A program made the position numbers and the translations under genes. A stretch of DNA of 13,188 bases from Candidatus Sumerlaeota bacterium (lineage in GTDB: Bacteria > Sumerlaeota > Sumerlaeia > JAFGJS01), in contig JAFGJS010000005.1 of the NCBI GenBank assembly GCA_016928995.1, positions 1-13,188 on the forward strand, in the 5' to 3' direction. This document shows, in pieces, positions 841-13,188 of this stretch (positions within the stretch are counted from its first letter, which is position 1; each line of letters opens with the position of its first letter). The notes below the pieces were generated by a model that did no database searches, had not been told where the DNA came from, and was given only the letters and a program-made list of their open reading frames with translations.

Positions 841-3369
841 TTATTTCTTTGACACGGCCAGACGGCCGAGGAGGTCGGCTAGGGATTGAAGGACTTCGGG
901 TTGGGGCAGCGGGAGTTTGAAGTAGGGTTGGCCGGCGCGTTCGTCGCGTGTCAAGAATGATTCCAATCCATCGCTCACAGCGCCAAGTGGCGAGGATTGC
1001 TTCTTATCATCTGTAGAGCTGGAAGCATTCGTCGGTTGTTGAAGCGCTTGGCCGAGTTTTTCCAGGAAGTTCATGCCGGCGGCGGCGAGTTCGTTCCATG
1101 CGGCGTTGGCGCCGTCCGCGCCGGACGACGATGAGGCTGCTGCTGTGATTGCTTCCCGCTCCTTTTCTTGATCCATGCGCGCGTCGCTGATTTCCTCCGC
1201 GCCGCTGGCGTCCGGTTCTTCGCTGGGCGCGGCGGGCGGAATGCCGCCGGAGGCGCGTTCGACGGTTTCCATGAAGCGATTCAACCGCGTGCCGCCGAGG
1301 AAGACTTCGTCGCTGCCGCCGTCCAGCACGCCGGCGAACAACGACTTCTTGAAGTCGATCAGCGAGAGCATGCCGTGCTCGATTGTCCCTTGCGCCACGT
1401 AGTTGATCACGCGCACCGGTTGCCGCTGGCCCAGCCGGTGCACCCGGCCGATGCGCTGCTCCAGCACCGCCGGGTTCCACGGCTGGTCCATGTTTACCAC
1501 CACCGAGGCGTGCTGCAGGTTCAGCCCGACGCCGCCCGCGTCCGTGGAGAGAAAGATGCGGCACTCAGGGTCTTCCTTGAAGCGGCGCACGAGTTCCTTG
1601 CGCTTCGGCCCTGGCACGCCGCCGTGGAACAGCACGTGTTCCCAGCGCCGGTCCGCGAAGCGTCGTTGCAGCAGCTCATGCGTGCGCAGCCACTGGCTGA
1701 ACACCACCGCCTTGGCGCCATTGCTCTCGAAAATTTCCTCGAGCTGCGTCGCCGCCTCGTCGGCTTTCACGCCGAAGTCGGTTTCGTGATCCAGCAGCCA
1801 GGTGCTGTTGCACGCCATGCGCATGTTCTGCAGCGCGATCATCAGCCGCCGCTGGTCGGGCTCAGTGAGCATGCGATGCCGCCGCCACTTAGCCACGAGC
1901 TTCGCCACGGTCTCCTGGTTCTCCTCGTGGTGCGCCATTTGCTCCGGCGTCATCGGCACGAAGAACGTCTTGTCCAGCCGCTCGGGCAGTTCGCTCAGCA
2001 CTTCGCGCTTGGTGCGCCGCAGCAGGATCGGTGACAGCGTCTTTGCGACTTGGGAAAGGTTGCGATACCCCACCACCTTGCCGTTCTCATCCACGTGCTG
2101 ATGCTCGGCCAGAAAGCGGAACGTAGGCCCCAAGCGGTGGCGGTCCACGAACTCGACGATGGAATGCAGTTCCTCCAGCCGGTTTTCCAGCGGCGTGCCG
2201 GTCAGCACGATGGCGTGCTCGCTTGGCAGGCGCTTGACCGCGCGGGCGGCGCGCGTCTTCCAGTTCTTGATGCGTTGCGCCTCGTCGAGCACGATAAGGT
2301 CCGGCGCCCAGCGGCGGATCGCCTCGGCGTCGCGGTGGATCACGTCGTAATTGACGATCTTAAAGAACGAATTGCTGGAGTAAGCCGCTTCACGCGCCGC
2401 AATCGGCCCCTCAACCACCTGCGCCGAACGGCCGGTGAACCGCTCGATTTCGGAGCGCCATTGATGTTTGAGCGACGTGGGGCAGATCACGAGCGCGCGC
2501 TCGATGTCCGCCGTGCGCGCCAGAATTTCCGCCGTCGCAATGGCTTGGATCGTCTTGCCCAGCCCCATATCGTCCGCCAGCAGGCAGCGTCCCGCCCGCG
2601 CCGCGAACAGCGCTCCCTGCCGTTGGTAAGGATACAGCGAAACCTTGAGCAGACGCTTGAACGCCGCGCTCTCCGCGCCATCGGGGAAGACCTTGTCAAT
2701 CGCCGTGGCTCGCCGCGCTTGGTCGCGCACTTGCGCGATGAAGCCGAGCGTGTCCTCATAGCAACGCAGTTCATGATCCGCCTTTTGCGCGATGCGCGAA
2801 GCCTCGCGCAGAAAAACGTCGAACCGCGCGTATGCCTCCGGTTTGAGCAGCTCGTTCGCGCCGAAATACTTCGCAGCCAATTTTCGCAACGCCGCCGGAC
2901 ACTCCGCCGCCGGGCCGAAAACCACCTCGCGCTTAAGCCCATAGCGCAGATAAATTTCGCTGAACGGCGGCTGAAAACCCTGCGCCAGCGCCTTTTTGCC
3001 GCCCCGCTTGCGGCGCAGTTTTTCCAGAGTAAACTCGATATGCTTGCACGAGCCAAGGGTATTCACCGCGTAGTCCGGGCACGAGCAATAATTCACGCCC
3101 GGCGCCTCGCCGCGAATCGCCACGCGATATGCCCCGCCGCTTTCCGGATTGGTCACGCGAAACTCCGAAAACACCGGCTCCTCGCCCAGGTTTTCCAGCT
3201 TGAACTTCTGCTCCCGACCAAACTCCCGCCGCAAGGCGAGCTGCCATTCCTCCAGCGACATCCCTTCCGGTCTATGCGTGCGCAGAGTCTTCTTCACCGC
3301 TGCTTTTTTGGACTTCTCCTTCGCAACCTTGGCTTGCTTACCGCGCGCCTGTTTTTTCACCGATGCCAT
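841..3369 (-). CDS. SWIM zinc-finger SNF2-family helicase-like ATPase
   Basis: This 842-aa protein is a SWI2/SNF2-family double-stranded DNA translocase. After a Lys-rich tail (1-30) comes a SWIM-type zinc finger, C95-x-C97-x10-C108-x-H110. The SNF2 ATPase lobe follows: Walker A DDMGLGKT (266-273), DEAQ (362-365) and LTGTP (389-393). The helicase C lobe has STDAGGVGLNLQ (608-619) and QRIGRVHRLGQ (638-648), the arginine-finger motif VI. All catalytic motifs look intact. Residues about 700-800 are a Ser/Ala/Glu-rich, probably disordered linker, ending in a short conserved-looking tail. The ATG at 3369 has a good ribosome site, GAGGAAAGG, 8 nt upstream. Bacterial SWIM-SNF2 proteins are widespread and presumably remodel protein-DNA complexes or recycle RNA polymerase, but their role is poorly defined. 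The neighbours (an HTH-like ORF upstream, abiEi 79 bp downstream) do not form a known defence operon. Confidence 0.93.
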   Translation of the reverse strand: MASVKKQARGKQAKVAKEKSKKAAVKKTLRTHRPEGMSLEEWQLALRREFGREQKFKLENLGEEPVFSEFRVTNPESGGAYRVAIRGEAPGVNYCSCPDYAVNTLGSCKHIEFTLEKLRRKRGGKKALAQGFQPPFSEIYLRYGLKREVVFGPAAECPAALRKLAAKYFGANELLKPEAYARFDVFLREASRIAQKADHELRCYEDTLGFIAQVRDQARRATAIDKVFPDGAESAAFKRLLKVSLYPYQRQGALFAARAGRCLLADDMGLGKTIQAIATAEILARTADIERALVICPTSLKHQWRSEIERFTGRSAQVVEGPIAAREAAYSSNSFFKIVNYDVIHRDAEAIRRWAPDLIVLDEAQRIKNWKTRAARAVKRLPSEHAIVLTGTPLENRLEELHSIVEFVDRHRLGPTFRFLAEHQHVDENGKVVGYRNLSQVAKTLSPILLRRTKREVLSELPERLDKTFFVPMTPEQMAHHEENQETVAKLVAKWRRHRMLTEPDQRRLMIALQNMRMACNSTWLLDHETDFGVKADEAATQLEEIFESNGAKAVVFSQWLRTHELLQRRFADRRWEHVLFHGGVPGPKRKELVRRFKEDPECRIFLSTDAGGVGLNLQHASVVVNMDQPWNPAVLEQRIGRVHRLGQRQPVRVINYVAQGTIEHGMLSLIDFKKSLFAGVLDGGSDEVFLGGTRLNRFMETVERASGGIPPAAPSEEPDASGAEEISDARMDQEKEREAITAAASSSSGADGANAAWNELAAAGMNFLEKLGQALQQPTNASSSTDDKKQSSPLGAVSDGLESFLTRDERAGQPYFKLPLPQPEVLQSLADLLGRLAVSKK

Positions 3370-3814
3370 TGGTTTCAGCCTTTCCTCATTCCAATCACAT
3401 TTTGATCATGCGACGCGCACATGATGAAGGCCATCTTCCGTCAATTTCAAGAACATTCTCCCGAACGCTTCGCTTTTAGTTCTGATGTTACGCTCAGAGT
3501 GTTTTTTGGAGCGCGGCGACAGAGCAAAACAGCGTCACATGACCACCGTACTCCAAAATGGCGCACAATGTGAAACACCAGTTCTTCATGACTACGCCTG
3601 CCGCATTGCAATCCTCCAGCACTCAACATATGCCCAATGTTGGATACTTGAAGGCTAAGATGTTACAGCAAAGATCACATGAGCGTTATTCGGCATCCAG
3701 CATCCTGCCATTTCGCCCCAGGCGTTTCCTTGAACACCAAAAGCAAAGGCCCGTTTTCTTGACCATTCCATTCGCTTGGCATCAGGCGAAACAACCGGAA
3801 AAATGACCCCAACC
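3370..3814. other. Intergenic region without a supported gene
   Basis: This 445-bp gap separates the SNF2 gene from the small HTH-like ORF. The best open frames (82 codons plus strand from 3558; 60 codons minus strand from 3629) lack a ribosome site, have no recognisable motif and are not supported. The SNF2 promoter must lie here, but I could not pick a convincing -35/-10 pair. No strong hairpin, tRNA or repeat is visible. A decayed gene or remnant repeat is possible. Confidence 0.5.
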
Positions 3815-4045
3815 TCATTTACGTTCACTGTCAATCATTGATTCCTCATGACCCTCCCGCTCCAGCAACGCCCGAATCTTCTCCGCCCCTTTCCTGCTCG
3901 GAACGGCCCGATTTTTCAGCCACACCCTGGCACAACCGTATAGTGCTGACACCCGACAAGCCAATTCGCGGATTGACATTTCATGCCGATCTTTATAGGT
4001 TCTTAAATCTGGAATCAGGGCTTGGCGCTTTTCTCGCTCACTCAA
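3815..4045 (-). CDS. Small HTH (Xre-like) DNA-binding protein, start uncertain
   Basis: The C-terminal 76 codons of this open frame read like an Xre/Cro-type helix-turn-helix protein. From the TTG at 4045, residues 12-62 hold an amphipathic helix, then MSIRELACRV (23-32) as HTH helix 1, a turn, VWLKNRAVPS (41-50) at the recognition-helix end, and KGAEKIRALLE (52-62). The order and spacing resemble 'ELA..L-VS..TV..WL-G...PS..A.EKI..LL' in this superfamily. The start is unclear: the frame stays open upstream into the permease gene, but that part is a shadow of the permease. Candidates are GTG 4132 (105 aa), TTG 4045 (76 aa) and ATG 3979 (54 aa), and none has a good ribosome site. GTG 4132 would put the hairpin at 4081-4101 inside the gene. 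It could be a genuine small regulator or the 3' remnant of a larger gene. Confidence 0.4.
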   Translation of the reverse strand: MSEREKRQALIPDLRTYKDRHEMSIRELACRVSALYGCARVWLKNRAVPSRKGAEKIRALLEREGHEESMIDSERK

Positions 4046-4080
4046 AAATTTAGGTTTAGGAGCACAAAGCCGAATATGGC

Positions 4081-10525: not shown

Positions 10526-10590
10526 TTACATAACGACAATGATATGTAAATTTGGAGCCATGAAATTTACATGTCATTACATTGATGTAA
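10526..10590 (+). promoter_or_regulatory. Cluster of five TTACAT/ATGTAA half-sites
   Basis: The hexamer occurs five times in 65 bp: TTACAT at 10526, ATGTAA at 10544, TTACAT at 10567, TTACAT at 10577 and ATGTAA at 10585. Copies two and three lie within perfect 10-bp inverted arms, ATGTAAATTT (10544-10553) and AAATTTACAT (10563-10572), with a 9-bp spacer. Copies four and five form TTACAT-TG-ATGTAA (10577-10590). The cluster ends 28 bp before a likely -35 for the dehydrogenase gene, a position suited to an activator or to cooperative repression. The binding protein is unknown; the local AraC regulator is one candidate. Confidence 0.5.
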
Positions 10591-10679: not shown

Positions 10680-11828
10680 ATGAATAAACACACCATTGGC
10701 ATCATCATGAACGGCGTCACGGGACGCATGGGAACCAATCAGCATCTGGTCCGTTCGATCCTGGCCATCCGCAAGCAGGGCGGCGTAAAGGTTTCCGACA
10801 ATGAAACCATCTGGCCCGAGCCGCTGCTGATCGGCCGCAATGAAAACAAGCTGCGCGCGCTGGCCGAGGCGCATGGCGGATTGAAGTGGAGCACGGACCT
10901 TGCCGCCGCGCTGGCCAATTCGGAATACACGGTCTACTTCGACGCGCAAACAACCAACCGCCGGGTTGAGGCCGTCAAACAGGCCATCGCCGCGGGCAAG
11001 CATATCTATTGCGAAAAGCCGACCGCGGAGAATTCCAGCGACGCAATGGAGTTGCATCGTTTGGCCGAGGCGGCCGGAATCAAGCACGGCGTAGTGCAGG
11101 ACAAACTTTGGCTGCCGGGTTTGATGAAACTGAAACGGATGATCGACAGCGGCTTCTTCGGCGAAATTCTCTCCGTGCGCGGCGAGTTCGGCTACTGGGT
11201 ATTCACCGGGCATCATGAGCCCGCGCAGCGCCCGTCGTGGAACTACCGCAAAGCCGACGGCGGCGGCATCATCATCGACATGCTCTGCCACTGGCGCTAC
11301 GTCGTGGACAACCTGTTCGGCGAGATCAAGCAGCTCACCTGCCTTGGCGCGAACCACATGAAGCAGCGCGTCGATGAGCAGGGCAAGGCCTACGACGCCG
11401 ACAGCGACGACGCGGCGTACGCCACCTTCGTTACTGAGCGCGGGATCATCTGCCAGTTCAACTCATCGTGGTGCACGCGCGTGAATCGCGACGAGCTGTT
11501 CGAGATGCACGTGGACGGCACGCTGGGATCGGCGGTGTGTGGATTGCGCAACGCGAAAGTGCAGGCCGCTCCGGCCACGCCGCGCGCCGTGTGGAATCCC
11601 GACATCCCCAGTCCGATCGCCTATCGCGATGGCTGGCTCGAAGCGCCGGATTACATGGAATTCGACAACGCCTTCAAGGCGCAGTGGGAGCTGTTCTTGC
11701 GGCACGTGGCGCTCGATGAACCGTTCCGCTGGAGCCTGAAGGAAGCGGCGAAGGGCGTGCAACTCGCCGAACTCGGCCTGCAATCCTGGCAGGAGCGCCG
11801 CTGGCTCGACGTGCCGGAACTGAAGTGA
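10680..11828 (+). CDS. Gfo/Idh/MocA-family NAD(P)-dependent oxidoreductase
   Basis: This 382-aa protein is a Gfo/Idh/MocA-type sugar or cyclitol dehydrogenase. The N-terminal Rossmann fold has IGIIMNGVTGRMG (6-18) as the dinucleotide-binding loop and YCEKPTAE (110-117) with the family EKP lysine, Lys113. The C-terminal alpha/beta domain carries WNYRKADGGGIIIDMLCHW (187-205), where Asp200 and His204 match the family's conserved D-x3-H active-site pair. Length is typical. ATG 10680 is chosen over ATG 10647 because GAGGA lies 8 nt upstream and the longer start falls near the predicted transcription start. Such enzymes oxidise or reduce sugar hydroxyls, and some make 3-keto sugars that allow glycoside cleavage by elimination. 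Its location after the GH88-type gene suggests action on a sugar from the same substrate. The 335-bp gap with its own promoter and half-site cluster points to separate but possibly coordinated control. Confidence 0.88.
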   Translation: MNKHTIGIIMNGVTGRMGTNQHLVRSILAIRKQGGVKVSDNETIWPEPLLIGRNENKLRALAEAHGGLKWSTDLAAALANSEYTVYFDAQTTNRRVEAVKQAIAAGKHIYCEKPTAENSSDAMELHRLAEAAGIKHGVVQDKLWLPGLMKLKRMIDSGFFGEILSVRGEFGYWVFTGHHEPAQRPSWNYRKADGGGIIIDMLCHWRYVVDNLFGEIKQLTCLGANHMKQRVDEQGKAYDADSDDAAYATFVTERGIICQFNSSWCTRVNRDELFEMHVDGTLGSAVCGLRNAKVQAAPATPRAVWNPDIPSPIAYRDGWLEAPDYMEFDNAFKAQWELFLRHVALDEPFRWSLKEAAKGVQLAELGLQSWQERRWLDVPELK

Positions 11829-11844
11829 TTATAACACTTCAGTT
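11818..11844. terminator. Hairpin overlapping the dehydrogenase stop codon
   Basis: AACTGAAGTG (11818-11827) and CACTTCAGTT (11835-11844) are perfect 10-bp inverted arms around a 7-nt AT loop. The TGA stop (11826-11828) sits at the inner end of the left arm. There are only three Ts after the stem, so this is a weak intrinsic terminator or an mRNA-stabilising 3' hairpin. A second inverted repeat, GCCATAT/ATATGGC (11851-11857 and 11879-11885), follows before the convergent gene ends at 11921. Confidence 0.5.
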
Positions 11845-11920
11845 TCGCTAGCCATATCGCAATGCTGACATCGGTCTTATATGGCGCAGATCAGTGTTCT
11901 TGGGTAGAATGTAACGAAAA

Positions 11921-12937
11921 TCAAGAACGTCTACTCCTAATTCGAACGCAAAAACCGATTCCGACTAAAATAACTGATATTGCGATGATTAGCCATATAT
12001 ATAATCGGTCCGATGATTCTGCTATTGGATTTTGATTTTTTTGAGGTTGTATATTAGTTTTTTTTGTATTTTTCACGATTGGGTCAAGATTAGTAGATGC
12101 TGACTCTGTTTTTGATTTCAACGCCAAATCATTAATGACATCCTTCTCCATATCACCTATATCATGATTAATCTTTTTCTTTTCACGTGCCATGCGTTCC
12201 TTTTCGGCTTGGGCAGTCAGTCTATCAGCAATTGTGGAATCGCCAAGTATCTCAAAAGCAAGGTCATGCAATTCAGCGATATCGTTTGGCGAACGTTTAT
12301 AAACATCAATGAGGTCGTTTTCCATCACTTTAAACTCATGTTCCATCGTTTCGGTCAAACGGTAATTCCGGATTAATTTGCCCCAGTTATTTTGCGCTTC
12401 AATAAACTCTTGAGGTGGTCCATCTTGAAACGGATCGATCTTAAATGAGTCCGGTCTAGGCGATGAAGACGGATTAAAATCAGGATATTTTTTTTTGAAT
12501 TCTTGACAGAATTCGTGCCCAGATTTATACCCCTTTAATAATTCTGTAGCCATTTCCCGTCGCGCCAAACGCATTCCTTCTCCTGTTTTGAGCTGGTTTT
12601 TTCGCCTAATGGCTGTTGCTTTATGCCAGTATGTATTCATTCGGTCGTGAGGAGATAGGTCGAGGGTTAGAGTTTTATTAGCCAAGTCAATTATATAATC
12701 CAACGAGGGTTCATCGTTAAAACCACGTGATGCGATAGCAGCTACTAAAAAAGCAGACATTTGTCCTTTCCGTTCTGAATTTGGTTCATTGGCTATCACT
12801 TCTTGCCACGATGTAACATGTTGTTGTAGATTCTCAGGCGTCAATTCATTGAAAGCATTAGGATCGTTCATCCAAGCATCATTTTGAGCATATACTTTAT
12901 CGCCTGTCATCCATATAAATACAATCCAAAAACGCAT
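11921..12937 (-). CDS. Hypothetical exported, C-terminally membrane-anchored protein
   Basis: I do not recognise a family for this 338-aa product. Its N-terminus looks like a short secretion signal (hydrophobic 3-10, possible cleavage after VYA, 15-17). Residues about 30-270 are mostly alpha-helical and charged, with helix pairs that could be TPR-like (weak). Residues about 275-310 are a Ser/Asn/Lys/Gln-rich linker, and 312-331 is a hydrophobic helix followed by the basic tail RIRSRRS. This predicts an extracytoplasmic domain anchored by a C-terminal helix. The gene is strongly AT-rich against its GC-rich surroundings and convergent with the dehydrogenase gene. No Shine-Dalgarno sequence precedes ATG 12937, and the frame stays open upstream into the repeat-bounded element that begins 12 bp away. 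The original start may therefore have been lost, and the gene may be 5'-truncated or silent. Confidence 0.65.
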   Translation of the reverse strand: MRFWIVFIWMTGDKVYAQNDAWMNDPNAFNELTPENLQQHVTSWQEVIANEPNSERKGQMSAFLVAAIASRGFNDEPSLDYIIDLANKTLTLDLSPHDRMNTYWHKATAIRRKNQLKTGEGMRLARREMATELLKGYKSGHEFCQEFKKKYPDFNPSSSPRPDSFKIDPFQDGPPQEFIEAQNNWGKLIRNYRLTETMEHEFKVMENDLIDVYKRSPNDIAELHDLAFEILGDSTIADRLTAQAEKERMAREKKKINHDIGDMEKDVINDLALKSKTESASTNLDPIVKNTKKTNIQPQKNQNPIAESSDRLYIWLIIAISVILVGIGFCVRIRSRRS

Positions 12938-12949
12938 AAAAAAGAAATC

Positions 12950-13188
12950 GTAAGCCTTTAGCCAAATGTTGCAAAGGGTGGCCGGGCTATGGTTCGGGCG
13001 GCTGCGCGGGGGGCAGCGGCGGCAGGGTTCCGCCGCCCGATCCGTAGCGTACGCCGCATTTCAACGCACATCGCCCCAAACCGCTGCAACGCCGCTGGAA
13101 CTCCCGCCTTGACTCGATCAACCCAGGCGAGCATGATGACTCTGTCGTCCAAGCGCCCTGGCCGCGCGATACTTGGCTAAAGGCTTAC
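12950..13188. mobile_element. MITE-like element with 16-bp terminal inverted repeats
   Basis: GTAAGCCTTTAGCCAA (12950-12965) and TTGGCTAAAGGCTTAC (13173-13188) are perfect 16-bp inverted repeats bounding 239 bp. The interior is very GC-rich while the left flank is AT-rich, so the composition changes sharply at the repeat. Inside is a GC hairpin, CGGCGG/CCGCCG (13017-13022 and 13030-13035). No transposase fits; a 64-codon minus-strand frame inside is arginine- and alanine-rich with no known motif. A non-autonomous transposable element or other dispersed repeat is the best reading. The right repeat ends exactly at the last base, so the element may extend further and no target duplication can be checked. 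Confidence 0.6.

Follow-up and report, generated by a model that had tools for sequence, protein, structure and literature searches.

What is the GC-rich segment, framed by inverted repeats, at which this contig breaks off, and does it belong to a mobile element? The window (the whole stretch of DNA analysed, 13,188 bases) is the entire contig C152 of a 161-contig genome, so the outermost base of the right-hand repeat is indeed the last base of the contig, as had been predicted from the sequence. Coordinates and base composition likewise confirmed the predicted perfect 16-bp repeats around a 239-bp GC-rich segment beside AT-rich DNA: GTAAGCCTTTAGCCAA occupies 12950–12965, its exact reverse complement occupies 13173–13188, and G+C is 64% within 12950–13188 compared with 38% in 11921–12949. 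The arms can be stretched to 23 bp at 87% complementarity (12950–12972 and 13166–13188; three mismatches, all transitions). Among perfect 16-bp inverted repeats with non-overlapping arms no more than 600 bp apart, this pair is the only one in the window. In a chance estimate counting perfect 16-bp repeats with non-overlapping arms only, such a repeat arose anywhere in 5 of 1000 first-order Markov sequences of window length (~0.5%). The parts of the segment are as follows.

12950–13188, no strand: putative transposase-less element, complete end to end, 239 bp
12950–12972, plus strand: left terminal inverted repeat, outer 16 bp perfect
13166–13188, minus strand: right terminal inverted repeat
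13027–13101, no strand: middle stretch of the element, on contig C152 only (own-genome search)

We consider it probable that the 239-bp segment represents an IS66-kind insertion element that is non-autonomous, likely internally deleted and mobilised in trans. Briefly, two apparently IS66-type ends (GTAAGC...) enclose ~200 bp that seem to encode no transposase; internal deletion of a longer insertion sequence would most likely have left the 239-bp form, and the IS66 transposase of a full-length relative would move the element in trans after binding to its two ends. Each new insertion site would thereby gain an 8-bp target duplication, presumably including the site of the window copy. The element resembles a MITE in being short (239 bp), bordered by inverted repeats (perfect 16-bp ends) and devoid of a transposase match. 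Its two ORFs (63–64 aa) gave no Pfam or NCBIfam match, and a search for known RNA families across 11800–13188 returned none. A minus-strand motif within the element, LPPLPPA, looked like a possible C-terminal remnant of an IS66 protein but found no match on search and was set aside. MITEPsy2 is 228 bp long (PMC3189936) and resembles the window element in measuring <300 bp and in having terminal inverted repeats, no transposase and dispersed ends, but differs in that the complete short form of the window element was assembled once only. No published IS66-derived MITE was found in a literature search covering a minority of journals.

Evidence for dispersal comes from the same genome, where the 16-mer has seven exact sites (two being the window's own ends) and one further site with one mismatch; a reversed-pattern control gave no exact match in this genome. 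Subterminal sequence is common to four contigs, three of which stop 77–87 bp inside the element: the left 77 bp recur on C107 and C134, and the right 87 bp (13102–13188) on C52, each of these contigs ending there. The left ends of C107 and C134 are identical to each other and differ from the window at a single position (13017). Because C107, C134 and C52 share the ends, stop inside them and carry different flanks, we conclude that the assembly was broken at a dispersed repeat. Such an element would explain the end points of the window contig and of several further contigs in the genome. On C131, C96 and C143, the end and a few similar bases lead into unrelated sequence, present in the bin as a single copy. 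Both ends stand together on C152 only, and the middle 75 bp of the element were not found elsewhere in the genome. The original prediction, a multicopy element at whose repeat the contig broke, therefore held for the ends, which recur in several contexts with different flanks and so are not single-copy, and for the break, which three other contigs repeat. It did not extend to the complete 239-bp form: the suggested listing of paired ends returned a multi-site end sequence, yet one complete pair.

Two of these contigs offer observations of their own. On C131 (L004 1501; contig position 34530), a 177-codon open frame runs out directly at the element end, which may mean an interrupted gene, and the contig stops 85 bp further in. 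On C96 (L038 201–216), an exact end is followed ~110 bp later by apparent transport genes, a possible cargo, which by eye we take to encode a sugar-binding lipoprotein and an ABC-transporter ATPase; no partner for this end was found on that 6,959-bp contig.

At the window copy itself, the surroundings of the left end are described by two further features.

12942–12949, plus strand: left flank AAGAAATC, expected copy of the 8-bp target duplication, whose right partner would lie beyond the contig end
11921–12937, minus strand: 338-aa ORF of unknown family, start codon 12 bp from the element

The 338-aa ORF stays open as far as the repeat, which places the insertion at or just before its 5′ end, and the insertion probably separated the ORF from its upstream region. 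A comparison of flanks within the genome for an 8-bp duplication produced no match.

To look beyond this genome, we searched 39 genomes of the same class for the end sequence. With one mismatch, the end occurs at 12 sites in G014 and two in G006, all close to contig ends. The G014 ends fall into two kinds, and two pairs of unlike (left–right) ends in this genome are flanked by identical 8 bp, AACAGATC and GCTATGTT. Target duplications, which the original prediction had proposed as a check, are thus found beside same-type ends in a relative. Furthermore, contig C772 of G014 holds two short derivatives (377 and 407 bp), both ends of each lying in the one contig:

L087 1898–2274: short derivative, within the C772 unit 1898–4050
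L098 45–451: short derivative, same unit and same orientation

Between these derivatives lie 1.37 kb with a single long open frame of 455 codons from stop to stop, which may be cupin-like or sugar-isomerase-like. CCTTTCCT stands on both outer sides of the 2,153-bp unit as an 8-bp duplication, as would be expected had the pair transposed as one unit. Separately, an end pair on G014 contigs C277 and C563 (L044 and L053) has an 8-bp duplication and the usual left end; its right end diverges from other right ends after ~28 bp, so interiors differ between elements. At least 10 contig ends in G006 (L060–L072) have in common CTCGATCCTTCATCCCATAAGGTCG... running into a CCCATAGCTTTTTG stretch; this is another high-copy repeat whose ends differ, probably an insertion sequence. 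We discarded the high-copy ends of G006 in which 31 bp match the left end of G014, since they belong to a different element with other ends. Viral contigs searched for the end gave no match, and a single archaeal match to the extended end (L037) was rejected, having no transposase among the listed nearby ORFs and fitting chance in a 257-Gb scan.

We then compared the ends with those of IS66 elements, using PF03050 (IS66 transposase) loci drawn from a search of 386 genomes. The elements found have GTAAGC-, GTAACC- or GTAACT-type ends, and several have 8-bp duplications, of which the following lie at PF03050 elements with GTAA- ends:

L117: ATAGTTAC
L075: GCAAGTCC
L129: AAGTAAAC

The window ends begin with GTAA (GTAAGC), as IS66 inverted repeats do. 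In a distant genome, G158 (L126), the stop codon of a Pfam-confirmed PF03050 gene lies inside GTAAGCATTTAGC, which is identical to the C143 end over 13 bp and matches the window end at 12 of 13. A value of 8 for the target duplication is tabulated for the IS66 elements ISPpa5a and ISPpa7 (PMC3281130). The likeness to the IS66 family (TnpC transposase, PF03050) thus lies in the GTAAGC terminal sequence, in the 8-bp duplications at related G014 copies and in the G158 end. The difference is that the 239-bp copy carries no transposase and the window genome's own bin gave no PF03050 match. A transposase bounded by the same exact ends, which the original prediction had suggested looking for, was accordingly not seen in the bin, a matching-type end appearing instead on the G158 gene, and none of the genomes searched yielded a full-length element carrying exactly these ends. 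The lack of a PF03050 match in the bin would be expected if a collapsed full-length copy was not binned. Judged on end sequence and duplication length, with no transposase between both ends, the ends appear to belong with IS66; lacking a PF03050 match, the 239-bp copy is a relative of IS66 by its ends only and not an IS66 insertion sequence. The predicted non-autonomous mobile element is supported by ends that recur in different flanks, by contigs that break at the repeat, by the lack of a recognisable transposase and by 8-bp duplications beside such ends in a relative. Two other candidates were dropped: G014:C211 is a multi-gene IS66 in which the element's ends were not found, and an N-terminal frame (LLNLT..QA.EI.AQG.EAVTWALL) at the left end in G014 and G006, similar in appearance to the start of an IS66 TnpC, was unconfirmed by Pfam, NCBIfam and plasmid searches and is not used as evidence.

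The main rival, which we regard as unlikely, is that the insertion-sequence ends are real while the assembler made the 239-bp copy by joining both ends of an element that was longer and had collapsed. Three contigs stopping 77–87 bp inside the ends, as they would at a collapsed longer repeat, and a middle stretch confined to C152 agree with such a join; against it, the contig is unbroken through those 75 bp, which lie outside the shared ends, the one-base difference from the C107/C134 left end marks the window copy as its own variant, and in G014 there are short derivatives whose two ends stand in a single contig. Less probable still is that the transposase mobilising this non-autonomous element comes from another family, one that happens to have GTAAGC ends and 8-bp duplications: the matching end at the stop codon of the G158 IS66 gene and the GTAA ends and 8-bp duplications of further IS66 elements speak against it, even though no IS66 transposase was found in the bin and no family model matches the N-terminal frame seen at the left end in G014 and G006. 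We give almost no credence to the idea that there is no mobile element and that the repeat arose by chance or as a fold-back artefact of assembly. The position of the repeat exactly at the contig end is what such an origin would predict, but chance repeats of this kind are rare (5 in 1000), the end is found again, with target duplications, in relatives, and the sequences into which the left and right arms lead are not the same, each recurring on other contigs with other flanks, on which ground the fold-back was rejected.

Read as an IS66-kind non-autonomous element, the segment is a known sort of transposable element, ordinary in kind, which also broke the assembly, and through it a bacterial class with sparse sampling would gain a non-autonomous family of IS66 type. 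That such derivatives can carry genes is hinted at by the cassette-like unit of G014. A broader proposal, that the class has an IS66-type end family moving transposase-less segments and host genes as cassettes, is speculative and in our estimate rather doubtful; it draws on the C96, C131 and C143 ends with unrelated interiors, one of them before an apparent sugar-transport operon, and on the host-type gene between the two G014 derivatives with an 8-bp duplication outside. Mobile insertion cassettes (MICs) are mentioned in PMC3281130; the G014 arrangement, a host-type open frame between two short derivatives and an 8-bp duplication flanking the whole unit, is shared with MICs and composite transposons, whereas the window copy is without cargo. 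Elsewhere in the window, an imperfect 28-bp inverted repeat (79%) with a 9-bp spacer lies between two ORFs at 10526–10590 and is possibly a terminator or a small repeat.
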